Origin: Cyclobacterium xiamenense
Lineage (GTDB): Bacteria > Bacteroidota > Bacteroidia > Cytophagales > Cyclobacteriaceae
DNA: 49,358 nt
Assembly: GCF_009467825.1 (NCBI RefSeq)
Contig: NZ_WIOK01000035.1
Location: 1 to 49,358 of the forward strand
Reading direction: 5' to 3'
The notes beneath the pieces are model-generated. The model was not told where the DNA came from and did no database searches. It worked only from the letters and a program-made list of their open reading frames with translations. The position numbers were made by a program, and so were the translations under genes. This document shows, in pieces, positions 5,311 through 38,470 of this stretch (position 1 is its first letter; every line of letters begins with the position of its first letter).

Positions 5311-5784
5311 ATGAACACAGAAGACTTTATTGAATCCATAAAAAACGCGCCACATGCGGATTGGCAAGCATGGTTGGAACAAACCCTTTCGCTGTTTGAT
5401 TGCGTCACCGGGACGCTGCACACACTGGAACCGGCTTCCGACGAGTTGGAATTGAAAGCCATGCAAGGTATTCCCGATTTTTTATTACCGAAAATGAGCC
5501 GCATCCCGGTAGGGAAGGGGATGGCCGGTATCGCTGCCGAGCGGAAAGAAGCGGTGCAGGTATGTAACCTTCAGACGGATGAATCAGGCGTGGTACGTCC
5601 AGGCGCCAAAGACACCAAAGTAGAGGGCGCCATCACCGCACCCATGCTTTGGCAAGGCAAACTTTTTGGCACCTTGGGGATTGCCAAAAAAGATCCCTAC
5701 GAATTTACCACGGAGGAATCCGAAGCGCTGATGGGCATTGCAGCGGCCATGGCTTTGCACCAGCTGCGATCTGCCGCTCGCTAA
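5311..5784 (+). CDS. small single-GAF-domain protein
   Basis: A 157-residue cytoplasmic protein consists of essentially one GAF domain. Family-like segments are the RIPVGKGMAGIAAERKE region in the centre, followed by GAITAPMLWQGKLFGTLGI and a final helix beginning FTTEESEAL. It has no output domain. It resembles free-methionine-(R)-sulfoxide reductase in size and fold, but the conserved cysteine arrangement of that enzyme is not seen: only C31 and one VCNL cysteine are present. A catalytic role is therefore not supported, and a small-molecule sensor or adaptor is more likely. Its last four bases overlap the end of the convergent nagX-like gene, and it starts 110 nt from the divergent rsmE. 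Confidence 0.75.
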   Translation: MNTEDFIESIKNAPHADWQAWLEQTLSLFDCVTGTLHTLEPASDELELKAMQGIPDFLLPKMSRIPVGKGMAGIAAERKEAVQVCNLQTDESGVVRPGAKDTKVEGAITAPMLWQGKLFGTLGIAKKDPYEFTTEESEALMGIAAAMALHQLRSAAR

Positions 5785-6947
5785 ACCTTCACAAATAGCT
5801 TGAGTCGGTACAGGATATAGAGGAATACCCATACCAATAAGAATGCACCGAAAGCCTGAAAAACAGCGTGCCATTCCTCCGGTAATGGGGCGTATAATCC
5901 ATAAAATAGTTTCCTGCTGGTGAAGCCAAAGTCAATGAAGCTGTACGCAAAATAAATGGTTAGCGAGTTCAAGCCGATTACCTGAAAGAAAAAGGCCCAC
6001 TTTCTAATTTTCCACACATCGATGACCCAGTAAAAAGCCAGCAGAAACAAGAAAGCCATTCCTGTGGTCAACAGGATAAACGAACTAGACCAAAGGTGCT
6101 TGTTGATAGGGAAATGCAATCCCCAAAGTAGCCCCAGTGCAATGCCGGCAATTCCACCAATGGCCAGGTAGCTTCCTTTTCGCTTGTCCAACCAGGCTTT
6201 TCCGATTACCTCCCCGGCCAGGGTTCCAAAAAGGGTTAGACAAAGTGCAGGAAATTGGGTCAAGATTCCCAATTCATCGTAGGTCACCTGATGCAATCGC
6301 CCCGGAAGAAAGGTCCGGTCAAACCATCCAACCAGATTGCCTTCAAAACTCAGGTCTCCGGTTCCGTATCCCGGCACCGGTATCAGGTACAAGGCGGCGT
6401 AATAAAGCAGCAAAATGACCATACCGGAGGCCAGCCGTTTGTAAAAACCCATGTTCAGGTAAAACCAGGTAGCCACAAAAGTAGCCAGCCCGATTCTTCC
6501 CAAAACGCTTCCCAGTCGAATTTGGGCAGGTTCAAAAAAAGGAACGGGAGCGTTTTTGTACAGCATCCCCAATAGGATCAGCACAATCATTCTGACGAAG
6601 GTTTTTCGGTACAGCGTACCATTCGACAGGCCCAGGGACTTTCCTTTGTTCAGCGAAAAGGTCAGGGATACACCAGCAATAAATAGAAACAGTGGAAAAA
6701 TAAAATCATAAAACGTAAAGCCATTCCAGGCCGGGTGCGTAAGTTGATTGGCGATCCAATCGACGGCACCGATTCCTGTTTTTCCTTTGAGTAAGACAAG
6801 AAAGGTCCCTCCCCCCGCAATTAACAGCATGTCAAATCCCCTGAGGGCGTCAATTGATAGCAGACGTTTGGAAGCAGTAGGAGCAGCCGAGACAGGAGAA
6901 CCCATTTCCGGATCTTTTCGGATCTCGCTGGAAGAAGAAATACTCAT
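5781..6947 (-). CDS. nagX: NagX-like polytopic membrane acyltransferase (DUF5009 / HGSNAT-related)
   Basis: A 388-residue membrane protein with about ten hydrophobic segments opens with the family signature SIDALRGFDM (31-40), followed by DFIFPLFLFIAGVS. This matches the DUF5009/YeiB-like family related to the membrane domain of heparan-alpha-glucosaminide N-acetyltransferase. In marine bacteria a member (NagX) sits in N-acetylglucosamine clusters and may acetylate or deacetylate amino sugars across the membrane. Here it is divergent from a GH109 glycosidase, nagB and a sugar permease, which supports an amino-sugar role. A start further in (M15) is possible, as the first 26 residues are low-complexity. 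Biochemical activity is inferred only. Confidence 0.82.
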   Translation of the reverse strand: MSISSSSEIRKDPEMGSPVSAAPTASKRLLSIDALRGFDMLLIAGGGTFLVLLKGKTGIGAVDWIANQLTHPAWNGFTFYDFIFPLFLFIAGVSLTFSLNKGKSLGLSNGTLYRKTFVRMIVLILLGMLYKNAPVPFFEPAQIRLGSVLGRIGLATFVATWFYLNMGFYKRLASGMVILLLYYAALYLIPVPGYGTGDLSFEGNLVGWFDRTFLPGRLHQVTYDELGILTQFPALCLTLFGTLAGEVIGKAWLDKRKGSYLAIGGIAGIALGLLWGLHFPINKHLWSSSFILLTTGMAFLFLLAFYWVIDVWKIRKWAFFFQVIGLNSLTIYFAYSFIDFGFTSRKLFYGLYAPLPEEWHAVFQAFGAFLLVWVFLYILYRLKLFVKV

Positions 6948-22748: not shown

Positions 22749-25700
22749 TTAGTCGATTTGTTTTTGGGTTTGCAGGTAGGCCATCAGGTTGATCACCTCT
22801 TCGTTAGAAAGCGGTTCGAACAAACCCGGAGGCATCAACGATACATCCGTGACTTCCTTGTTCTGAATCGCCGATTTATTGATCAGGACCGGGTCCTGCC
22901 CAGCCACCTTTACCCGAAGCTGTCGGGCGCTTTCCCCTACCACATTTCCGGTGTAGGTACGGCCGTCAACGGTGGTAATGACCACCAGGCGGTAAGCGTC
23001 CTGAATTTCCGCGCTGGGCTCCAGTACATTCAGAAGAATGTAATCCGGGTCCTGCCGATTGGAACCGGTAAGATCAGGTCCAATATCCGCTCCTTCCCCA
23101 AATAGCTTGTGGCAACTACCACATGACTGCGTAAACAGCCGTTTGCCTTCCAGTAGATTTGCGGTTGCCAGGGCTTCTTTCGTAAAAAGGTCTTTGTAGC
23201 GTTGGTAGGCGGCTTCGTCGCTGGGAACATGTTCTATCGGCCCCCATACTTCGACAAAGCCGCTGCCGATTACCCGGTGCAATTGCCGGGCCAGCGTAAC
23301 CGGGATTTCCTTCCTGGCGATGTTTCCCGCTTTAATTTCGTCCAACAGTTGGTTTCCATATAAAGAACGAGCGGACATGGTTTGCAGGATGGCTACCTTT
23401 TCTTCTGCCGAAGCTGTCGGATAGGCTTTTATAAGCGCAGATCCGAGGTCCGCTTTGGAAAAAGCAGCCACGGCCCGTATGGCCTCCAATCGAAGTGTCT
23501 TCTCTTTCAGCAGCGCAGGAAGGAGTGGGGTTAACTCCGTTTTTTGCTGCGCGGCAAGCATTTGGAGGGCGGTAAGTTTCTCTTGCTCTGAGGCAGAAGG
23601 GTTTTGCAGCATAGCCAATGCTTCCTGCGTAGCTGCCGCATCCCCAAATCGAGCGCTGACTTCAGCTACAAGAGCGCCGAGTTCTTCCGTCCCCTTCAGT
23701 TTTTCGGCAATTTCCTGCCAGCGCTGCGGAGGGGAAAGATCGGTTCTTCCCTCCATTCCCTCCACCATGCCGGACAGAAGATCGGTCCGGTTTTGTTTCG
23801 CCAACGCAATGCGCGCTACCAACGCATTGAGGTGATCGCCATCTACGGCCCTTCGCGCCATGAATCGCGTCAGTAAGGGTGATGCCGATTCCTCGGCCAT
23901 GGCCAAAAACCGGTTGGGGTTTTTATCGATCAGGTATTCCGTTCCAAACCAGATCATTTTGGGGATGTTGTGATCCTCTCGGTCTTCTGCTCTGCGCATC
24001 AGTGCGGCTGACAGGTCCCATTTCCAGTCTTCCGGAATGCGTTGCAGGGCTGCAGCCAGGTACAGGCGTACGGTCGCAGAAGGGTCCTCGTTGGCCAGTT
24101 GGGTAAAGCGATCCCTGGCGGCTTGGGGCGGATTCCGGTCCTCGCAAAGCAATTGGATACCCCAGGCCCGTACATAGGGATCCGGATCATCCAATAACGC
24201 CAGGCGTTCCTGCTCTCGCCATCCATCAACCTGATGCAAGGCCCAAAGCGCCTTTAGCCGGTAATTACTATTCTCCTGTTGGTGAAAAATCGCTTTCAGC
24301 CGGGAAATGGTGGTTTCCTCCAGTTTTTGCTGTACCGCGCGTTTGTGAAGGATTCCCCGTGCCCGTCTGGAATGCCAGTCACTTTTACTGGTTTGCAGGT
24401 GTACCAATGCGGAATCCGGCAAAGCATTGAGATCGCCGTACCGCCCTTCCCAGTCTTCTGCCTTTGATTGGTCGGGCATGATTCGGAAAATGCGACCGGT
24501 TTCACTGTTCAGCACTTCCTGTCCGCAGATATCGGCATCGTGCCAATCCAATACGTATACCCCACCTTCGGGACCGGTTTCCATGCTAAAACCCACCCAT
24601 TGGGCATTGTTTGCCAGTAAAAAATCGTCCGCATGCCTGCCGGTAAACCCGGATCCATTTGGAACGAGTTCGTCTGTGAGTACGGCATGTTCGTGGATAT
24701 TGGCCATAAATACCCTGCCCCATTCTTCTTCGGGGAAGGCATCGGACTGGTAGATTCGCGCGCCCCCATGTGCCGAACGATGGCTGTGATCGGTAATGGT
24801 TTTGATGTCTTCGTATACGTAGGGATTGAAGTGCTGCCCCCCTTGCCGGTGGTAAATCCCTCCTGGCACCACGTGCCAGAGGTGGGGAATTACACAGGCG
24901 GTCATGATCCATTGTCCCTTTGGATCGTAATCAATCCCCCAGGGATTGCTGAATCCATGGGCCACCACTTCAAAGTTCTGCTTGACCGGATGATAGCGCC
25001 AGACACCGCCATTGATGTCCACACCCTCGGCGTCCAGCAAATCCTCCGGAAAAGGATCCTTGTGGTAATACAGTTTCTTTTTTTCTTCTTCGGTTGGCTT
25101 CCGGATTTTAGAGGGAGTGGCGAAGCCCTGTAACCCATATAACCAGCCGTCGGGGCCCCAATGCAGGCTGTTTAAGGTTTCGTGCCGGTCGCGGATGCCC
25201 CAGCCGGTCAGCAAAACTTCGATGGCATCCGTATCCGCCCGGTCGTCCTGATCCCGGTCCGGGATAAATAACAAATTAGGTGGTGCGCCTACATAGACAC
25301 CGTCAAAACCGACCGCCAGTGCGGCAGGAAAAGCCAGTCCCTCCATGAATACTTTTTTCAAGTCTGCCTTTCCATCTCCATCTGTATCTTCCAAAATCAA
25401 TATCCGGCTGTCACCGGCCTCTGAGAAACCATGCCCCCGGGATTCGTAGTCCCGGTTTTCTGCCACCCATAGCCGGCCTTTGTCGTCCCAACAGAAAGCC
25501 ATGGGTTGGGTAATCATTGGCTCGGAAGCGAATACATTGACGCGATAGCCCTCTTTTACACGCATCTCTTCTACGGCTTCCTCGGGTGAAAGAAACCGGG
25601 CGTTTCTGCCCTCTTCCTGCGCAATTCGCCAAAGGGCCGTGGTATTGTACATGCCGGTATTTCCCACGTATTCTCCCCAGGCTTCTGTCAATGCCAGGTC

Positions 25701-26573
25701 CTCAAATTTGTCGGTATAAAACAGCAGCCGGTGCTTTAGGACCAGCGTCTCCCCGGCCGGAAGGCTCCAGTCTGCATCCCGGGTGTAAGCAGGACCTACG
25801 CCAAATTGTCCATCTACGCGCCATTTTTGAGGGTATCCCTTGTTGTCCGGGTGATCAAATAGCGCCACGTTTGCCCGGTCGTCACGTCCTTTTACCTGCA
25901 TGCCAATATTAAGCCACATGGAAGGTTGACCCTCAGCCAGCTCGTTTTTTTGCCGGGCGGTGTTGACAACCTCGGCATCCATCCCTTCCTGCCAGGGCAT
26001 TCGAAGAAACAGGCCTCCGTAGTCGTATTTCCCAATCGTGAGCGATTCCTCCGCGTGTCCCTGCCATTCCAAGTCCAAAAAATACCGCTCGTTTTCCACC
26101 TGAAAGGACCAGGTTTGCGTTTCCGTTAGGACCACGTTTCCCAGGCTGTCGAGCATCTCGTACACCGTCTGCCATTTCACCTGTTCTCCTTCTTCCTGGA
26201 GTACATTTGCTGCGACTTTTCGCCAGTGGCTGGCTTCCGGGTGGTGAAAGAAATCCCGCTCGTTTACCCGCGTAAACCCCCAATACAGCCCCGTTTGGTG
26301 CTTGTGGTGTCCGGGGCTGTATTCGGTTACTATCCCGTTGCCATCCGGAGAAAGAATTGGATGGATGTAGGGTCGAAACCCCTCCTGCGCTTCCTGTACC
26401 AGCAATGGGGTATCCGGCAGGTTTTTTCGCACTACCCGGAGTTGCCCGTTGGCGTCATCCCGAATGATGGTGAGTATCACAGGGCCTTCCGAAAGGCGTT
26501 GGTTTTCAACACCCTGCCCTCCTCCGCAGCCGTACAAGGCCAGCAGGAAACTAAGGATCAGCAGCTTTTGCAT
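22749..26573 (-). CDS. lipoprotein fusion: PmoA-like (DUF6807) + PVC-type dehydrogenase propeller + HEAT repeats + cytochrome c
   Basis: A 1274-residue exported protein. A lipobox-like end of the signal peptide gives C16. Residues about 30-320 resemble DUF6807/PmoA-like proteins (PYIHPILSPDGNGIVTEYSPGHHKHQTGLYWG). About 335-700 form a sugar-dehydrogenase-like propeller of the PVC-type membrane-bound family (MAFCWDDKGRLWVAENRDY; LNSLHWGPDGWLYG). About 735-1095 are helical HEAT-like repeats. About 1138-1274 form a c-type cytochrome with one heme site CGSCH (C1151, C1154, H1155) and a likely Met ligand M1247 in SLMPPGL. The propeller-HEAT-cytochrome order is common in Planctomycetota and Bacteroidota; the N-terminal PmoA-like domain is the added part. 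It lies 20 nt after the sulfatase gene, in one unit. Substrate is unknown, and oxidation of a sugar or polyol is plausible. Confidence 0.87.
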   Translation of the reverse strand: MQKLLILSFLLALYGCGGGQGVENQRLSEGPVILTIIRDDANGQLRVVRKNLPDTPLLVQEAQEGFRPYIHPILSPDGNGIVTEYSPGHHKHQTGLYWGFTRVNERDFFHHPEASHWRKVAANVLQEEGEQVKWQTVYEMLDSLGNVVLTETQTWSFQVENERYFLDLEWQGHAEESLTIGKYDYGGLFLRMPWQEGMDAEVVNTARQKNELAEGQPSMWLNIGMQVKGRDDRANVALFDHPDNKGYPQKWRVDGQFGVGPAYTRDADWSLPAGETLVLKHRLLFYTDKFEDLALTEAWGEYVGNTGMYNTTALWRIAQEEGRNARFLSPEEAVEEMRVKEGYRVNVFASEPMITQPMAFCWDDKGRLWVAENRDYESRGHGFSEAGDSRILILEDTDGDGKADLKKVFMEGLAFPAALAVGFDGVYVGAPPNLLFIPDRDQDDRADTDAIEVLLTGWGIRDRHETLNSLHWGPDGWLYGLQGFATPSKIRKPTEEEKKKLYYHKDPFPEDLLDAEGVDINGGVWRYHPVKQNFEVVAHGFSNPWGIDYDPKGQWIMTACVIPHLWHVVPGGIYHRQGGQHFNPYVYEDIKTITDHSHRSAHGGARIYQSDAFPEEEWGRVFMANIHEHAVLTDELVPNGSGFTGRHADDFLLANNAQWVGFSMETGPEGGVYVLDWHDADICGQEVLNSETGRIFRIMPDQSKAEDWEGRYGDLNALPDSALVHLQTSKSDWHSRRARGILHKRAVQQKLEETTISRLKAIFHQQENSNYRLKALWALHQVDGWREQERLALLDDPDPYVRAWGIQLLCEDRNPPQAARDRFTQLANEDPSATVRLYLAAALQRIPEDWKWDLSAALMRRAEDREDHNIPKMIWFGTEYLIDKNPNRFLAMAEESASPLLTRFMARRAVDGDHLNALVARIALAKQNRTDLLSGMVEGMEGRTDLSPPQRWQEIAEKLKGTEELGALVAEVSARFGDAAATQEALAMLQNPSASEQEKLTALQMLAAQQKTELTPLLPALLKEKTLRLEAIRAVAAFSKADLGSALIKAYPTASAEEKVAILQTMSARSLYGNQLLDEIKAGNIARKEIPVTLARQLHRVIGSGFVEVWGPIEHVPSDEAAYQRYKDLFTKEALATANLLEGKRLFTQSCGSCHKLFGEGADIGPDLTGSNRQDPDYILLNVLEPSAEIQDAYRLVVITTVDGRTYTGNVVGESARQLRVKVAGQDPVLINKSAIQNKEVTDVSLMPPGLFEPLSNEEVINLMAYLQTQKQID

Positions 26574-26593
26574 GGGAAAATAATTGGGAAAGG

Positions 26594-28183
26594 TTAGGGG
26601 GTATTTCTAGGGTGAATCACCCCGTATTGCCTTTTTATTCGCTTAAACCGATCAACGAGCGAATGTTGAATGGAATCGTATTCGGGATAGTTGTAGATAT
26701 TGTTCATCTCCATCGGATCTTTTTCCAGATCGTACATTTCCCATTCGCCCAGTTCGTAAAAATGCATGAGTTTGTAACGCTCCCCGGTTATCCCCTCGTG
26801 TTTGTTTACGCTGTGTACTGCTGGAAACTCGTAATAGTGGTAATAAAGATAATCCCGCCAGTTTTCGGGCGTTTCGCCGCGCATTAAAGGAAGCAGGCTC
26901 CTGCCTTGCATGCGATCGGGAGCTTCTACCCCTGCTACATCCAAAAAGGTCTGGGCAAAATCCAGATTGGAAACCAGATCGCTGTTAACCGTTCCTTCCG
27001 GGATTTTTCCCTGCCATTGCATGAGTAGAGGGGTACGGAAGGATTCTTCGTACATGAACCGCTTGTCGAACCAGCCGTGCTCGCCCAGGTAAAACCCCTG
27101 GTCAGAGGTGTATACGATCAGGGTGTTTTCATCCAGGCCATTCTCCTCCAGGTAATCCAGTACCCTTCCCACATTGTCATCGACGGAACGGATGGTGGCC
27201 AGGTAATCGCGCATGTACCGCTGGTATTTCCATCGGACCAGGTCGTTGCCTTGAAGGTTCTGTTCCTGGAATTCCTGGATAATGGGATTGTAAACGGCAT
27301 CCCAGGCTGCCCGCTGTGTGTCATTCATGCGGCCATACGTACGGTTATAACTGCCTTTATTCTTGTTTTCTTCGGTCCAAAGCTTCAAATCGGAGTCCAA
27401 TAGCATGGTCTCCCGAATGGTCATGTCTTGTTCTTTGGCTGCCGTCCCGCGGTTGCTGTAATCGTCAAACAGGTTGGCTGGCTCGGGGAATTCCACGTCT
27501 TCATACAAGGTCAGGTGATCCGGTCCTTTTTCCCATTCCCGATGCGGTGCTTTGTGCTGCAACATCAGCATAAAGGGCTTTCCACTTCCTTTATTGGCGT
27601 CCAGCCAGGCGAGGGATTTATCGGTGATCAGGTCGGAAACGTAGCCTTCGACGGCACCCGTATCGGTATCGGAGATAAAATCAGGATTGTAATAATGGCC
27701 TTGCCCCGGCAAAATTTCCCAATGATCAAATCCGGTTGGCTTGGACCGAAGGTGCCATTTCCCAATGAGCGCGGTGGTGTATCCATTTTCCCGAAGGAGT
27801 TTGGGGAACGTGATTTGTTCGCCATCGAAAATATCACCATTGGTACGGTGACCGTTTACATGACTGTGCGCCCCAGTCAGAACGGTTGCCCGCGAGGGAG
27901 CACAAATGGAATTTGTAACATAAGCCCGGTCGAACCGCATGCCATTTTCCGCAATCCGGTCGATGTTAGGCGTAGGGGCATAGTCGGCAAGCTGGTGCTC
28001 GTAAGCACTGATGGCTTGAAATGCATGGTCATCGGAAAATATAAATAAAATATTGGGCCGCTGAGGTTCGGAGATCGTTTCGGTGCTTTTTTCGGCGCAG
28101 GAAAGGGTAGCTGCAGAAAGGACAAGCAGGAGCATCAGGTTACTGAAGGAGTGTACGTGGACTTGTTTCATCATTCGTTTCAA
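26594..28183 (-). CDS. sulfatase lipoprotein (formylglycine type)
   Basis: A 529-residue sulfatase of family S1 that hydrolyses sulfate esters, exported as a lipoprotein (ATLSC, C29). DD at residues 51-52 supplies metal ligands. The C-x-P-S-R motif is CAPSRATVLTG, with C94 converted to formylglycine by an anaerobic or aerobic maturase encoded elsewhere. The C-terminal part (HEGITGERYKLMHFY, MYDLEKDPMEMNNIY) resembles N-acetylglucosamine-6-sulfatase and related glycan sulfatases. The start could be M5. It heads a unit with the dehydrogenase-cytochrome fusion (20-nt gap) and is divergent from a LamG protein. The precise substrate is not decidable from sequence alone. Confidence 0.93.
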   Translation of the reverse strand: MKRMMKQVHVHSFSNLMLLLVLSAATLSCAEKSTETISEPQRPNILFIFSDDHAFQAISAYEHQLADYAPTPNIDRIAENGMRFDRAYVTNSICAPSRATVLTGAHSHVNGHRTNGDIFDGEQITFPKLLRENGYTTALIGKWHLRSKPTGFDHWEILPGQGHYYNPDFISDTDTGAVEGYVSDLITDKSLAWLDANKGSGKPFMLMLQHKAPHREWEKGPDHLTLYEDVEFPEPANLFDDYSNRGTAAKEQDMTIRETMLLDSDLKLWTEENKNKGSYNRTYGRMNDTQRAAWDAVYNPIIQEFQEQNLQGNDLVRWKYQRYMRDYLATIRSVDDNVGRVLDYLEENGLDENTLIVYTSDQGFYLGEHGWFDKRFMYEESFRTPLLMQWQGKIPEGTVNSDLVSNLDFAQTFLDVAGVEAPDRMQGRSLLPLMRGETPENWRDYLYYHYYEFPAVHSVNKHEGITGERYKLMHFYELGEWEMYDLEKDPMEMNNIYNYPEYDSIQHSLVDRFKRIKRQYGVIHPRNTP

Positions 28184-28459: not shown

Positions 28460-29335
28460 ATGGCTGGTAAAAATAGTCGATGCGCCCTGATTTTGTTTGT
28501 TTTCGTCTGGGTAACTGAGGCCACCGGCAGGCAGGATCCGGTCGCGTTTCTGAGCGCAAAAGAAGGATTGGTAGCGCTTTGGGATTTTCGCGAGCCTTCA
28601 GGGATGCCGCGAAAAGCCGTCGGAAAAGGAGATTTCCCCTTGGAGGAACGAAATGGACGGATTCCGCGGGTTGAGGAAGGTCCCCTTTCCGGATATGCGG
28701 CGCATTTGGACAACCAATCTTTTTTTAGCCTTCCACACGATCGTACCGGTGCGCTGAATGTTCATGGAAAGATGCAGGGGATCACGGTGATGGCCTGGGT
28801 CAAGTGGTACGGTAAGACGGGGTTTGTGGGAGGTATGTGGAACGAATACACAGATGGTGGGAAACGGCAGTATGGCTTATTTGTCGATCTACCGCACTAC
28901 AACGGCGCCAATCAAGTCTGTGGTCATGTGTCTGCCACAGGTGGACCCACGCCTCCCTTTCCCTACAGTTGCGATTATTCGGCAAGCAAGCAGCAATTAA
29001 CGAAAGGTCAGTGGCACGTTATCGCGTTTACCTACGATGGTACCTACATCAAATCCTATTTGGATGGAGAATTTCAGGAAAGGCCCCCCGAGCCCATAAA
29101 AAATACGAAGGGTTTTCCTGGACTGCCGGAGGGCCTGGTTCATTCCAAAAATCCCTATTATTTCTCGGATGGAATCGGGAACAATGGCTCGGATTTTACC
29201 GTCGGAGCAGTCGTGTTGCAACGAGGAATGGGGAACTTTTTTAATGGACTTATTGGTGGCTTGGCCGTATTCGACCGGGTAGTGGAGGCGTCCGAAATGC
29301 AAGAAATCAGTCGGATGACGATGCAGCCGCACTGA
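28460..29335 (+). CDS. secreted LamG-domain (concanavalin A-like) protein
   Basis: A 291-residue protein has a signal peptide (about 1-24) and one LamG/concanavalin-A-like jelly roll (about 36-285). Typical marks are LVALWDFREPSG, ITVMAWVKWYGKTGFVGG, GQWHVIAFTYDGTYIKSYLDGE and FFNGLIGGLAVFDRVVEASEMQEI. The domain binds or hydrolyses glycans in many exported proteins, but no catalytic residue set is recognised, so binding is more likely. It is divergent from the sulfatase (276 nt apart) and convergent with the DUF6807 lipoprotein. DUF1080 3-keto-glycoside hydrolases share the fold, but no DUF1080 motif was recognised. Confidence 0.82.
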   Translation: MAGKNSRCALILFVFVWVTEATGRQDPVAFLSAKEGLVALWDFREPSGMPRKAVGKGDFPLEERNGRIPRVEEGPLSGYAAHLDNQSFFSLPHDRTGALNVHGKMQGITVMAWVKWYGKTGFVGGMWNEYTDGGKRQYGLFVDLPHYNGANQVCGHVSATGGPTPPFPYSCDYSASKQQLTKGQWHVIAFTYDGTYIKSYLDGEFQERPPEPIKNTKGFPGLPEGLVHSKNPYYFSDGIGNNGSDFTVGAVVLQRGMGNFFNGLIGGLAVFDRVVEASEMQEISRMTMQPH

Positions 29336-29379: not shown

Positions 29380-30582
29380 TTACTCCACAATGCGGGCCTG
29401 TATGGGATGCAATAAATCGTTGTTTATGCGATCGATGATGGCCTGATCGGGTTGCCCCTGATGTACGTAATACCGAAAGCGGCTGGTAAAGGTTTCCCCC
29501 GGCGCAATGGTGAATTCGCCATCGACCATGGGAGCATATACCCAGTATGGCATGGTAGGATGCACCCGAATCGCTTGGGGATACCGGAAATTCGATGGAA
29601 ATCCGAAGACTGTTGCTCCAGCCATCTTTCCGTCTACCTCGCCAAATGCCCCCACCCAGGATGCATGGGTGTGATTTGCGGTTTCGCCTGTAAAGCCTTC
29701 CGAGGTTTCTATGTTCCAGGTATTCGTGTAATGCAGCGAATCCACCGAGTTCCATTCCCGGCTACCCCGGAATCCCATGCCCCCGTAATGGTAGTCTACG
29801 ATAAACAAGGTGTCGCTACTGGTATTCGTTTGCTCGGAATACAAGTCAAATAAGAAATATTCCGAAAAGGGGTATACCTGTACTTTCCAGGTTTCTTCGA
29901 GCACTTCTCCGTGTTTTAGGCTTATGTGCCGCAGCAGGCTTTCGAATACTGCGGCATTGACGCCCTCTTCCAGGTGCAGCAGATCCACGTGTTCCACCGT
30001 TCCGGTTTCCTGATGTTGGTTCCAAAAATCCACCTTTTCCCCCCTGAACTGGGTATTTACCCAGGCATTGAAAATGGCATGTTGGTGTGTGTGGCCTACA
30101 GGAAATGCATCGGTCAACACCTGGCTCTCCGGGCTATACAGTGGGTGTATCATGCCGCTTCGTTTGTAATAATCCGGCAATCCTTCCCCGGGTAAGGCAG
30201 TGGCAGTCTGGTAAAAAAGGACGGGCTTGCCCGCCACAGAGAGTTCGATGCCTTCCTCCGTTTGGGAAATGGTGACCCGGCTTTCCACGTTTCCGGCTGC
30301 TTGACGCAATCCAAAGTCACCTTCTGTGCCTGCGGACATTTCGTCTACTACCACCAATAGGTGTCCGGAGGACAAAACCTGAGCAGGATAGGCTTTTCCT
30401 GTTTGCTCATTGATCAATTCGTAGTCGCTACCGGCCGGTAAATCCCGATCCAGGGGAATTAGCAGGGGACTATTTTTCCGATCCAGGTCTCCGGCATCCA
30501 GGGAAATGCTCATAATTGGCGAAGACGAGCAGGCCATTTGTGCGAGCAATAAAAGAACAAGGTAGAGGTGATTGGTTGACAT
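29380..30582 (-). CDS. DUF6807 (PmoA-like) lipoprotein
   Basis: A 400-residue protein with a hydrophobic leader ending MAC (probable lipidated cysteine) that belongs to the DUF6807 family once labelled methane oxygenase PmoA. Shared features with the N-terminus of the 1274-residue fusion are PLYSPESQVLTDAFPVGHTHQHAIF (compare SPGHHKHQTGLYWG), an FDLYSEQ/YHYGGMGFRG stretch, and a FAPGET-like region. It is not a methane monooxygenase; the name is historical. The frame extends to 30708, but the ATG at 30582 gives the lipoprotein signal. It probably binds or modifies a small ligand or glycan at the cell surface. It is convergent with the LamG gene and divergent from the M16 protease. Confidence 0.83.
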   Translation of the reverse strand: MSTNHLYLVLLLLAQMACSSSPIMSISLDAGDLDRKNSPLLIPLDRDLPAGSDYELINEQTGKAYPAQVLSSGHLLVVVDEMSAGTEGDFGLRQAAGNVESRVTISQTEEGIELSVAGKPVLFYQTATALPGEGLPDYYKRSGMIHPLYSPESQVLTDAFPVGHTHQHAIFNAWVNTQFRGEKVDFWNQHQETGTVEHVDLLHLEEGVNAAVFESLLRHISLKHGEVLEETWKVQVYPFSEYFLFDLYSEQTNTSSDTLFIVDYHYGGMGFRGSREWNSVDSLHYTNTWNIETSEGFTGETANHTHASWVGAFGEVDGKMAGATVFGFPSNFRYPQAIRVHPTMPYWVYAPMVDGEFTIAPGETFTSRFRYYVHQGQPDQAIIDRINNDLLHPIQARIVE

Positions 30583-30771
30583 ATGTTTGGAGGTTGATGG
30601 AAAATGGGAGATGAAATATCGGAAGGGCCTTGTAAAAATCCAATTTACCGCCGGGATATTTTGAAGCACAGGGGAGACACTGCCCTTTTTACAGGCAATA
30701 TTTTTCAAATTGCTTATTTATTCGCAATATTGAACTCGCTTTATTTAGTTGATCCCCCTCTTTACCGTCTT

Positions 30772-33646: not shown

Positions 33647-34819
33647 ATGACAAATACGATGCGTATCCGATTGTTATCCTTTGTTTTGGTTTTGTTTTCA
33701 TTCCTGGCGATAAAACCGCTCGCTGCGCAGGTTACCGATAAGCCGCTCGAGAAAAAACTTTTTGTCAGCGGTACGGGGGGATACCATACCTATCGAATTC
33801 CATCGTTATTGGTAGCCAAAGATGGCTCGTTGCTGTTCTTTGTCGAAGGGAGAAAAACCGGAAGCGGCGATACGGGCGACATTGACTTGTTGCTCAGGCG
33901 TTCGGAAGACGGGGGGCATAGCTGGTCTGAGCCAATCGTAGTTTGGGACGATGGGGAGAATGTATGCGGTAATCCCAGCCCGGTTTTGGACGAAGAAACA
34001 GGAGAAATCCACCTGCTCCTCACATGGAATGGTGGATACGATACCGAAGGGGATATTATTCGTAAGAAAAGCCGGGATACGCGTAGGGTATTTGTTATGA
34101 AGTCCTCTGATCATGGAATAACCTGGTCCAAACCAAAAGACATTACCCAAAGTACCAAAAACCCGGAATGGGGATGGTATGCCACAGGTCCGGGGATCGG
34201 TATTCAAATCAAACATGGACCGTATAAAGGTCGTTTGGTGATCCCCTCTGATCATAGTTACGATGATCCGGCCGGCCAGGTAAGGGGCGGTCCCTTTGAA
34301 TACGGATCGCATGTAATTTACAGTGATGATCGGGGTAAGACCTGGAAACTAGGGGGTATCATTCGACCCAAGATGAACGAGTGCCAGGTAGTGGAAATGG
34401 CGGATGGACAAGGAGACCTCCTGATGAACATGCGCTCCTACTTCGGAAAGAACAGGCGGGCGTTATCCGTAAGCCAGGATGGTGGAAGATCCTGGTCCGA
34501 CCCCGAGGAGGCGTCAACGTTGATTGAGCCCGTTTGTCAGGCAGCATTGATCCGGTACTCCTGGCCGGAAGATCCAACCGGAGATCTGGTCTTATTCTCA
34601 AATCCTGCCAGTACAAAAAGGGAAAATATGACGGTGAAATTGAGCAAAGATAGTGGGAAGACCTGGGTAGCCTCTAAGGTTCTTCACGCGGGCCCCTCAG
34701 CCTATTCGGCCCTTGCGGTATTGCCCAATGGGGAGATTCTCTGCGCCTATGAAAAAGGAGTGCAGCATCCCTACGAGGAAATCAGCCTGGCACGCCTTCG
34801 CCTGAGTGATCTTGAATAA
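33647..34819 (+). CDS. nanH: GH33 exo-alpha-sialidase, secreted
   Basis: A 390-residue six-bladed propeller glycosidase that releases terminal sialic acid. All hallmarks are present: the YRIP motif with R50, the two further arginines of the triad (R263 in NMRSYFG, R325 in STKREN), the acid E245 in NECQVVE, the nucleophile Y353 in SAYSAL, and five Asp boxes (SEDGGHSW at 86, SSDHGITW, SDDRGKTW, SQDGGRSW and SKDSGKTW). A signal peptide spans about 1-27. ATG at 33659 is an alternative start. No sialate lyase, epimerase or transporter gene is in the window, so the sialic acid may be used by genes elsewhere or merely removed to expose the glycan below. Confidence 0.93.
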   Translation: MTNTMRIRLLSFVLVLFSFLAIKPLAAQVTDKPLEKKLFVSGTGGYHTYRIPSLLVAKDGSLLFFVEGRKTGSGDTGDIDLLLRRSEDGGHSWSEPIVVWDDGENVCGNPSPVLDEETGEIHLLLTWNGGYDTEGDIIRKKSRDTRRVFVMKSSDHGITWSKPKDITQSTKNPEWGWYATGPGIGIQIKHGPYKGRLVIPSDHSYDDPAGQVRGGPFEYGSHVIYSDDRGKTWKLGGIIRPKMNECQVVEMADGQGDLLMNMRSYFGKNRRALSVSQDGGRSWSDPEEASTLIEPVCQAALIRYSWPEDPTGDLVLFSNPASTKRENMTVKLSKDSGKTWVASKVLHAGPSAYSALAVLPNGEILCAYEKGVQHPYEEISLARLRLSDLE

Positions 34820-36622: not shown

Positions 36623-38470
36623 TTACCTGAGGGTATTCCCACCGATAATCTCCACGATTTTAGTAAAAATTTCGGTGTTTTCATACACTCCCCGGAAATG
36701 CTGGGCATGCGGCCCGTAGGCAAATACCGGGACCATCAGTCCGGTATGGTCTTCCGTAGAAAACTCCAGTTCTACGGTTCGGCTTTCCGTATTTCCCTGG
36801 GGAAGCGTAATTCCTCCCGTTTCGTGGTCTGCGGTGATCAGGACAAGGGTATGCCCATCTGCGTCGGCAAAACGTAGCGCTTCGGCGATGGCCCGATCAA
36901 AATCTATCCCTTCTTCGATCACCGTTGCCACCTCATTGGCATGTCCTCCGGAATCGATGAACGCACTTTCAATTACCAATAGAAAGGGTTGGTCTTTTGT
37001 CTGTAAAAAATCGATGCCTGCTTTGGTGGCTTCGGAAAGAAAGCGCTGCCTTCCCTGACTTACCTTGGGGAGGCCTTGGTACGCTGCAAAGTAACCCACC
37101 TTGCTACCCTCGTGGTCCCCCAGTTCGGAAAGGGAATTGGCGAGAAAAAAGCCAGCGTTTTTTAGTTGGTCGATTCCTTTGGATTCTTCGTCCAAAAAGG
37201 TCTGTTTACCTCCTCCTATAAAGAGGGATAAGGGGCTATTTGCTAAATCTGAAGCGATTTCCCGGGTCCAATCCCTTTCGGGTTGATGGGCAAAAAAGGA
37301 AGCCGGCGTGGCTCCGGTTACCTCGTCGGTGGTGATGATTCCTGAATGAAAACCGAATTCGGTAAGGTATTCAGGGAGATTGGTGGCCGGGCTCCCATCC
37401 GGAAGCATGCCGATACTTCTGTTTTTTGCTTTTTTACCAGAGGCAAGGGCGGTGCCAGCGGCAGCCGAATCCGTGGTAAAATCATCGGCTGACTGGGTTT
37501 TGATCAAGCCCATGTTTTTCAACTGGGTAAGGGTCAAATTATTCCCGTTGGCATACATGGCGGCAGAGATTTGGGCCAGACCATTTCCATCGCCGATAAG
37601 TAAAATTACGTTTTTGACTTCTCGTTCCGTGCCGTCCGATGCAAACGTGGGGCGATAAATCTCATGGGGACTGGGCCGGGTGTACAAGCGGGAGGAGAGG
37701 CTCGACAGGTAGCTTTGGGCCGCTGCGGGGTGATCCGTGTTGATATAATCTACACCCAATTCGTACAGGGCCTTCCAGGCGGTTTTGCTATCGGGGCTGG
37801 CCCAGAAACGAAACGGTTTACCGTAGCGGTGGGCGACAGCGATGGCTTGTTCTACACGCTCCCGGTCGGCATCAACCAACCTGCCTTTTCCATTCCACGC
37901 CGAAAAATTGCGAAAACTCAGGCTAAACAATGCAATTTTCTCCAGAGGAAGCTCCAGCGTATCCTGTACGCTTTGGTAGTCAAAATAGATCGGAAAAGGA
38001 AACTGTTCGTACTCTTCTTTTTTCGGACGGTTGCCGGAGATCACCAGTTTCACAAAGGGATGTTCGGGGTCATCCCAGAGTTCTTCGTACCCGCGTATAC
38101 TTTTCAAAAGCGTTGCCATGGTAGCATAGACTTCCGTTTTAAAATCGATCAGGAGAATAAAGGGCTGCATGCTGCCGATCCGGAGTCGTTTTGCCCGAAG
38201 CATGGGTTCCAGATACAGGCTTTGCAAGGTATGGCCTTTTCGGATACTTTCTTCTTCGTGGGCCACAAACAAGGTGTCGTTCTGTAAGATGACATCGGCT
38301 TCGATGGAAGCAGCGCCGCGGGCATAGGCCTCCCAAAAGGGGACCTCCTGCAGGTAATCGTTGTGGCTGTGTATGGCTACCTCCTGGGCCCGCGTCGGGA
38401 AACCGAGGAAGACAAGTGCAATGACAAGTAAGCCTATCGGGAAAAAACATCCCGTTTTTTGTCCTTTCAT
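36623..38470 (-). CDS. fusion of GDPD/PI-PLC-like phosphodiesterase and alkaline phosphatase, secreted
   Basis: A 615-residue exported protein with two catalytic domains. A signal peptide covers about 1-28. Residues about 30-265 resemble AIM6/GDPD-like phosphodiesterases: HSHNDY (H34, H36, D38), IEADV (E57, D59) and a later H71. Residues about 284-615 are an alkaline phosphatase: metal-binding D294 in LLIGDGNG, nucleophile S335 in TTDSAAAGT, HETGG and EDHTG near the C-terminus. It could release phosphate first from a phosphodiester and then from the monoester product. The lactonase gene follows 66 nt downstream. Both domains have their motifs, but the order of steps is inference. Confidence 0.9.
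   Translation of the reverse strand: MKGQKTGCFFPIGLLVIALVFLGFPTRAQEVAIHSHNDYLQEVPFWEAYARGAASIEADVILQNDTLFVAHEEESIRKGHTLQSLYLEPMLRAKRLRIGSMQPFILLIDFKTEVYATMATLLKSIRGYEELWDDPEHPFVKLVISGNRPKKEEYEQFPFPIYFDYQSVQDTLELPLEKIALFSLSFRNFSAWNGKGRLVDADRERVEQAIAVAHRYGKPFRFWASPDSKTAWKALYELGVDYINTDHPAAAQSYLSSLSSRLYTRPSPHEIYRPTFASDGTEREVKNVILLIGDGNGLAQISAAMYANGNNLTLTQLKNMGLIKTQSADDFTTDSAAAGTALASGKKAKNRSIGMLPDGSPATNLPEYLTEFGFHSGIITTDEVTGATPASFFAHQPERDWTREIASDLANSPLSLFIGGGKQTFLDEESKGIDQLKNAGFFLANSLSELGDHEGSKVGYFAAYQGLPKVSQGRQRFLSEATKAGIDFLQTKDQPFLLVIESAFIDSGGHANEVATVIEEGIDFDRAIAEALRFADADGHTLVLITADHETGGITLPQGNTESRTVELEFSTEDHTGLMVPVFAYGPHAQHFRGVYENTEIFTKIVEIIGGNTLR

Follow-up and report, generated by a model that had tools for sequence, protein, structure and literature searches.

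Several described systems bear on the locus studied here. PVC-type heme-binding CxxCH proteins (TIGR02604/TIGR02603, DUF7133) combine a propeller with a heme domain and carry HEAT repeats between the two, and related propellers are found in the pyrroloquinoline quinone (PQQ) sugar dehydrogenases, soluble or aldose (1c9u, 3a9g, 2ism), and the AA12 pyranose dehydrogenases (6h7t, 6jt5). The 3-keto-glycoside pathway is, in the accessible parts of its descriptions (PMC9007349, PMC10628242), built of LacABC, Gfo/Idh dehydrogenases, DUF1080 hydrolases and TIM-barrel eliminases and hydratases; the same parts give DUF1080 proteins as 3-ketoglycoside hydrolases (PMC9007349) and AtOGE as an Mn2+ TIM-barrel beta-eliminase (PMC10628242), and excerpts of other articles report that planctomycetes are rich in DUF1080 (PMC5673643) and tie thuAB to 3-keto sugars (PMC4765114 and PMC10433430, both citing Ampomah 2013 by title). 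The window, that is, the whole 49,358-nucleotide stretch of Cyclobacterium xiamenense DNA analysed here, is the entire contig C35 of a 5.78 Mb genome and encodes a fusion protein that resembles the PVC-type proteins in its propeller, HEAT region and heme and adds to them an N-terminal DUF6807 domain. Compared with the PQQ sugar dehydrogenases and the AA12 enzymes, it keeps the PQQ contacts in part and adds the HEAT region, heme c and DUF6807; compared with the 3-keto-glycoside pathway, with which it has gene partners and fusion partners in common, it would hold the oxidising arm and a putative cleaving arm on one chain with a heme of its own, and its DUF6807 domain is not a characterised member of that pathway. 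Our preferred reading, for which we consider the chances evenly balanced, is that the fusion is a periplasmic, membrane-tethered enzyme of the 3-keto-sugar pathway that first oxidises and then cleaves its substrate. Its features, all on the reverse strand, are these:

22749..26573, minus strand: fusion protein of 1274 aa with signal peptide/lipobox, DUF6807, PVC-type propeller dehydrogenase, HEAT repeats and CxxCH heme domain (open reading frame and profile matches)
26526..26573, minus strand: signal peptide with lipobox-like Cys16 (...LLALYGC; from the sequence)
25677..26393, minus strand: DUF6807 (PF14100), residues 61-299, 166 bits; predicted as a galactose-mutarotase-like super-sandwich in an AlphaFold2 model
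26298..26306, minus strand: H90-x-H92 of the HHxHQ motif, part of the candidate active site in DUF6807 (conservation)
24468..25550, minus strand: PVC-type propeller dehydrogenase, TIGR02604 at residues 342-702 and DUF7133 at 329-689 (profile matches)
23988..24203, minus strand: HEAT_2 match, residues 791-862, within a helical region of about 720-1130 (profile match)
22767..23159, minus strand: heme domain, TIGR02603 at residues 1139-1269 and Cytochrom_C at 1142-1174 (profile matches)
23109..23123, minus strand: CGSCH heme c attachment motif, C1151-H1155, invariant in 86/86 fusions
22833..22835, minus strand: Met1247 of the SLMPPG motif, likely distal heme ligand, Met in 86/86 fusions

The joining of these parts, first described from the letters alone, is borne out by the single 1274-residue frame and by profile scores over the thresholds: DUF6807 reaches its 166 bits against a Pfam gathering score of 27, TIGR02604 reaches 317 against a curated cut-off of 122 and TIGR02603 reaches 112 against 68, with DUF7133 at 226 bits. 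The database search for a PmoA-propeller-heme architecture that the preliminary description had proposed, made here with the DUF6807 part of the fusion among named genomes, gave 540 relatives, the nearest of them from Cyclobacterium, and the fused gene is present in all of the best 80 that we analysed, all of them Bacteroidota, with one (L100) split in two frames. Within the same GTDB family (148 genomes, E <= 1e-100), 31 genomes match: the own genome, one with a fragment (G093) and 29 others in which the protein is 54-78% identical, the alignment in six of these beginning only at about residue 101-106; the named and family sets of loci overlap. A phylum sample has DUF6807 in 39 of 296 genomes and, judged by length, nine frames of 1274-1340 aa (own included) in five families. 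Given the family genomes, the best 80 named relatives and the similarly long frames of the phylum sample, the architecture is an established family. A rare one-off fusion is ruled out by the 29 other family genomes and the 80/80 best named relatives. Twelve plasmid records match, each with less than 80% of the query covered at any one place. The frame is broken by a stop or split in L071, L081, L087, L100 and four rows of the family search, from decay or assembly error. Our literature search, with most subscription journals outside its coverage, found no functional study of the PVC-type heme-binding CxxCH proteins, nor the phrase 'PVC-type heme-binding' itself, no function for DUF6807, which is named in one paper solely as the latest DUF number, and no study of this fusion design, in agreement with the preliminary description, to which it was not known as a characterised system.

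Across 86 aligned fusions (the window, 79 of the 80 named loci and six family loci), both CxxCH and [ST]xMPxG are always present. The solved structure nearest to the heme domain is the diheme protein 7zs0, and Met1247 aligns to a Met of 7zs0 whose place is taken by Cys in 7zs1, a structure titled M292C; this alignment and the Met in 86/86 fusions make it the likely distal heme ligand. The propeller has an sGDH-type fold, closest to the PQQ sugar dehydrogenases, and keeps the PQQ contacts of soluble glucose dehydrogenase (sGDH) partly, with Asn543 at N229 and Ser542 at R228, while His464, one residue off H144, is invariant in the 86 fusions; N229, R228 and H144 of sGDH are the residues that we take to have PQQ-contact and catalytic roles. 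For the propeller-heme half, the oxidation of a sugar with electrons going to the built-in heme, as originally proposed, is the best reading, given the fold and the constant heme motifs. The own genome has no PqqE over the cut-off (best 48.9 bits vs 381), and the host may import PQQ. A hydrophobic N-terminus is found in 85 of the 86 fusions, with a Cys right after it in 37 by a looser rule and in 15 by the strict lipobox pattern, and the N-terminus of the window protein with its Cys16 fits a lipoprotein.

In the DUF6807 domain, nine residues (P72, H90, H92, D107, E151, R191, W220, N244 and P248) are shared by all 24 of the divergent DUF6807 proteins aligned, one of them the window's; over the 86 fusions, eight of them are invariant and E151 is Q in five. 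Because of this constancy, catalysis by DUF6807 is suggested, with the nine residues as its candidate active site. The fold is predicted to be mutarotase-like; a search of the PDB for sequence homologues of DUF6807 gave no significant match, a miss that does not exclude one, and neither the fusion nor the window's stand-alone DUF6807 protein matches PF06439 (DUF1080, 3-keto-disaccharide hydrolase) at E 0.01. As for the 'PmoA' label, true PmoA presumably belongs to a Pfam family other than PF14100, and no result here points to a methane oxygenase. PF14100 has nevertheless served as the 'PmoA' model for methane oxidation genes, according to the accessible part of PMC10291797; if DUF6807 is a sugar enzyme, methane-oxidation counts based on PF14100 would be wrong, and caution is due when it is used as a marker.

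A connection that the preliminary description had missed emerges from the partners of DUF6807 in other Bacteroidota. We considered two genes per side at 20 of 29 DUF6807 loci from other genomes, leaving out nine; of these, seven are on short contigs or close to the end of one, the exceptions being L194 and L198. The set keeps two antisense frames with no Pfam match, a certain one of the self gene in L220 and a likely one of 1278 aa in L218. Gfo/Idh/MocA proteins make up 21 of the 79 neighbours and occur at 14 of the 20 loci, compared with 0/77 proteins and 0/20 loci in 20 control regions on the same contigs, a zero that rests on phmmer because the Pfam list for the controls holds 25 of 155 families. 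Oxidoreductases lead the 25 commonest families beside DUF6807; among the 79 proteins there are also three DUF1080, three AP_endonuc_2 and two ThuA. A cluster of AP_endonuc_2 proteins (c1, assigned by Pfam on one member) appears in 19 of the 80 best named loci, mostly Dyadobacter; it probably reflects few events, and we therefore give it little weight.

Fusions point the same way. DUF6807 is fused to DUF1080 (L091, L208) and to ThuA (L214, L218), and at L091:6395-10251 (+), on contig C62 of the own genome, 44 nt separate a PQQ dehydrogenase-cytochrome c gene from the DUF1080-DUF6807 fusion that follows it, in which the DUF6807 part shares 47% identity with that of the window fusion. Within the same genome, the N-terminal slot of the PVC chassis is taken by DUF6807 (window), DUF1080 (L267) or ThuA (L277), while GDSL matches in L267 and L280 stay below the Pfam cut-off. 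L277:2970-6509 (+), on C20, combines its N-terminal ThuA with a C-terminal plastocyanin/azurin-like copper domain and has no CxxCH and no Pfam cytochrome match, so that the electron-acceptor domain of the chassis seems to be swappable too. We counted 20 PVC proteins in the own genome, not including second pieces or rows that scored no more than about 55 bits; five of them lie within 5 kb of DUF1080 against an expected 0.84 (P 0.001), two of the five being below the family cut-off, and a left-out PVC row, C24:2835, is also near a DUF1080 match. One of these genomic contexts, L270, is an apparent SusC-SusD-PVC-DUF1080 run, with SusC inferred from size and place, and the gammaproteobacterial plasmid NZ_CP109966.1 of Catenovulum adriaticum (L274) is annotated with a row of TIM barrel, PVC-type protein, DUF1080, GMC oxidoreductase, gluconate 2-dehydrogenase subunit 3 and sulfatase. 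The Catenovulum run also includes a TonB receptor and a GH43. Taken together, neighbours, fusions and the shared PVC chassis amount to a genetic association with the 3-keto-glycoside pathway, and we infer from these arrangements that DUF6807 is linked to it.

The fusion gene shares its surroundings with the following genes:

26594..28183, minus strand: sulfatase, predicted lipoprotein (PF00884 Sulfatase and SGSH_C; profile matches)
27890..27904, minus strand: CAPSR formylglycine maturation motif of the sulfatase (from the sequence)
28460..29335, plus strand: LamG-like (Laminin_G_3) protein between the sulfatase and the stand-alone DUF6807 protein (profile match)
29380..30708, minus strand: stand-alone DUF6807 predicted lipoprotein, 185 bits, DUF6807 domain at 29431-30249

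The second DUF6807 protein reported earlier is indeed present, 2.8 kb from the fusion start, and is kept in seven of nine named Cyclobacterium loci (L093-L099), the LamG-like protein in all nine (L093-L101). The sulfatase, which had been presented as a functional partner, lies on the same strand with 20 nt between its stop and the fusion ATG. It aligns over its full length with the putative sulfatase 9s03 (571 bits) and, by their PDB names, the mucin-desulfating 7p24 (568) and the N-acetylglucosamine (GlcNAc)-6-sulfatase 5g2v (558); the window enzyme shares a CAPSR site and differs from 7p24 and 5g2v in that its gene is paired with that of a redox protein. With a Sulfatase domain, a formylglycine motif and a GlcNAc-6-sulfatase among its closest solved relatives, it is a plausible glycan sulfatase of GlcNAc-6-sulfatase type, its substrate being suggested by sequence likeness, and CAPSR is found in 13/13 adjacent sulfatases of named relatives. 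For maturation, the own genome has an FGE-type domain (PF03781, best 285 bits) and no match to anSME TIGR03942. So far the pairing stands; as a general system it does not, the sulfatase being directly upstream in 13 of the 80 best named loci (nine Cyclobacterium and four Lunatimonas/Lunatibacter) and in 7 of the 31 family loci. In a FastTree tree with the window included and L100 left out, the 13 sulfatase-bearing tips fall within a clade of 15 (support 0.98, two changes), and at L120, one of the other two tips in it, the upstream gene is unseen. The pairing is lineage-specific, belonging to one clade; a role of the sulfatase as an intrinsic general partner is ruled out by these counts. A looser link to sulfate is possible, since 5/31 family loci and 5/80 best named loci have another sulfatase, of 25-30% identity, at a distance of some kb. 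For the sulfatase-bearing clade, a GlcNAc-type glycan is a reasonable guess at the substrate. Lunatibacter has a glucosamine-6-phosphate isomerase-like gene 1.1 kb from the fusion on the other strand (the genome appears twice), Pleomorphovibrio and a Cyclobacteriaceae metagenome-assembled genome (each twice) have a GH109-like Gfo/Idh gene 4.4 kb away, also on the other strand, and the amino-sugar genes of the window lie 7-10 kb from the fusion.

Under the oxidise-then-cleave reading, the propeller, related as it is to the PQQ sugar dehydrogenases, would oxidise a hydroxyl of a glycoside, probably at C3, with the electrons going first to the C-terminal heme c, then to respiration. The DUF6807 domain, mutarotase-like by prediction and with its HxH/D/E/R/N site, would then act on the oxidised sugar: it may release the aglycone by beta-elimination, hydrate the glycal so formed or catalyse an isomerisation. 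The GlcNAc-6-sulfatase-like enzyme would serve as a clade-specific helper in Cyclobacterium and Lunatimonas/Lunatibacter, first stripping off a sulfate that blocks the substrate. A bolder version, which we put forward only tentatively, makes DUF6807 an unrecognised enzyme family that cleaves or hydrates 3-keto-glycosides, and the fusion a machine on one chain that, with no classical glycosidase, oxidises and cleaves a desulfated (GlcNAc-type) glycoside and delivers the electrons directly to respiration. If true, this would provide a function for two uncharacterised families and a new fold in the 3-keto-glycoside route, and the PVC chassis would be a general plug-in oxidiser in which the occupant of the N-terminal slot (DUF6807, DUF1080, ThuA) determines the second reaction. 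As the count for this genome alone illustrates, there are many PVC-type heme dehydrogenases, and their interchangeable N-terminal domains make the functions of PVC and DUF6807 testable: glycan cleavage that begins with oxidation, takes place outside the cytoplasm and is coupled directly to respiration.

The preliminary description pictured instead a surface complex in which the sulfatase desulfates a glycan and the sugar or polyol thereby set free is oxidised by the fusion; in such a scheme DUF6807 would be only a binding or accessory part. We regard this as unlikely. The conserved adjacency in Cyclobacterium and Lunatimonas/Lunatibacter speaks for it, as do the weakly related sulfatases farther off and the sulfatase within the Catenovulum run, and the YidC periplasmic domain is among the DUF6807 fold matches, meaning that the fold need not be catalytic. 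Yet no adjacent sulfatase is visible in 67 of the 80 best relatives (in seven of these the contig begins <=560 nt from the match and the upstream gene is unseen), sulfatase is outside the 25 commonest families beside DUF6807, and the near-complete constancy of the nine DUF6807 residues suggests catalysis. The surface location is not supported: by a crude rule for surface export, which demands at least two acidic residues among positions +2 to +5 from the Cys, 0 of the 37 lipoprotein-like fusions carries the signal.

In another scheme, DUF6807 would be a mutarotase or epimerase that supplies the dehydrogenase with the correct anomeric or ring form, or that mends the product of the oxidation, with no bond cleaved; we find this version of its role doubtful. 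Very improbable, in our view, is that the propeller is a binding scaffold rather than a working dehydrogenase and the fusion a heme-bearing lipoprotein for adhesion or sensing. The partial retention of the PQQ contacts and the lack of a PqqE over the cut-off would suit a scaffold, and the same fold is found in HHIP, which we take to be non-enzymatic. Against this, the propeller is the most conserved part of the protein, with 174 of 373 positions identical across the 86 fusions compared with 58/306, 43/433 and 30/139 elsewhere; the heme ligands are invariant, and more PVC proteins than expected have DUF1080 nearby.

Elsewhere in the window, the 388-aa frame at 5781-6947 (-) is without a Pfam match, and a 76%-identical relative of it adjoins the glucosamine-6-phosphate isomerase-like gene near the Lunatibacter fusion. 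At 36623-38470 (-), a 615-aa protein with an alkaline phosphatase domain and a GDPD_2 match is encoded beside a lactonase-type propeller gene. The gene for a BNR-repeat (sialidase-like) protein at 33647-34819 (+) adjoins that of an M16 peptidase, an arrangement also found in L057 and L058.

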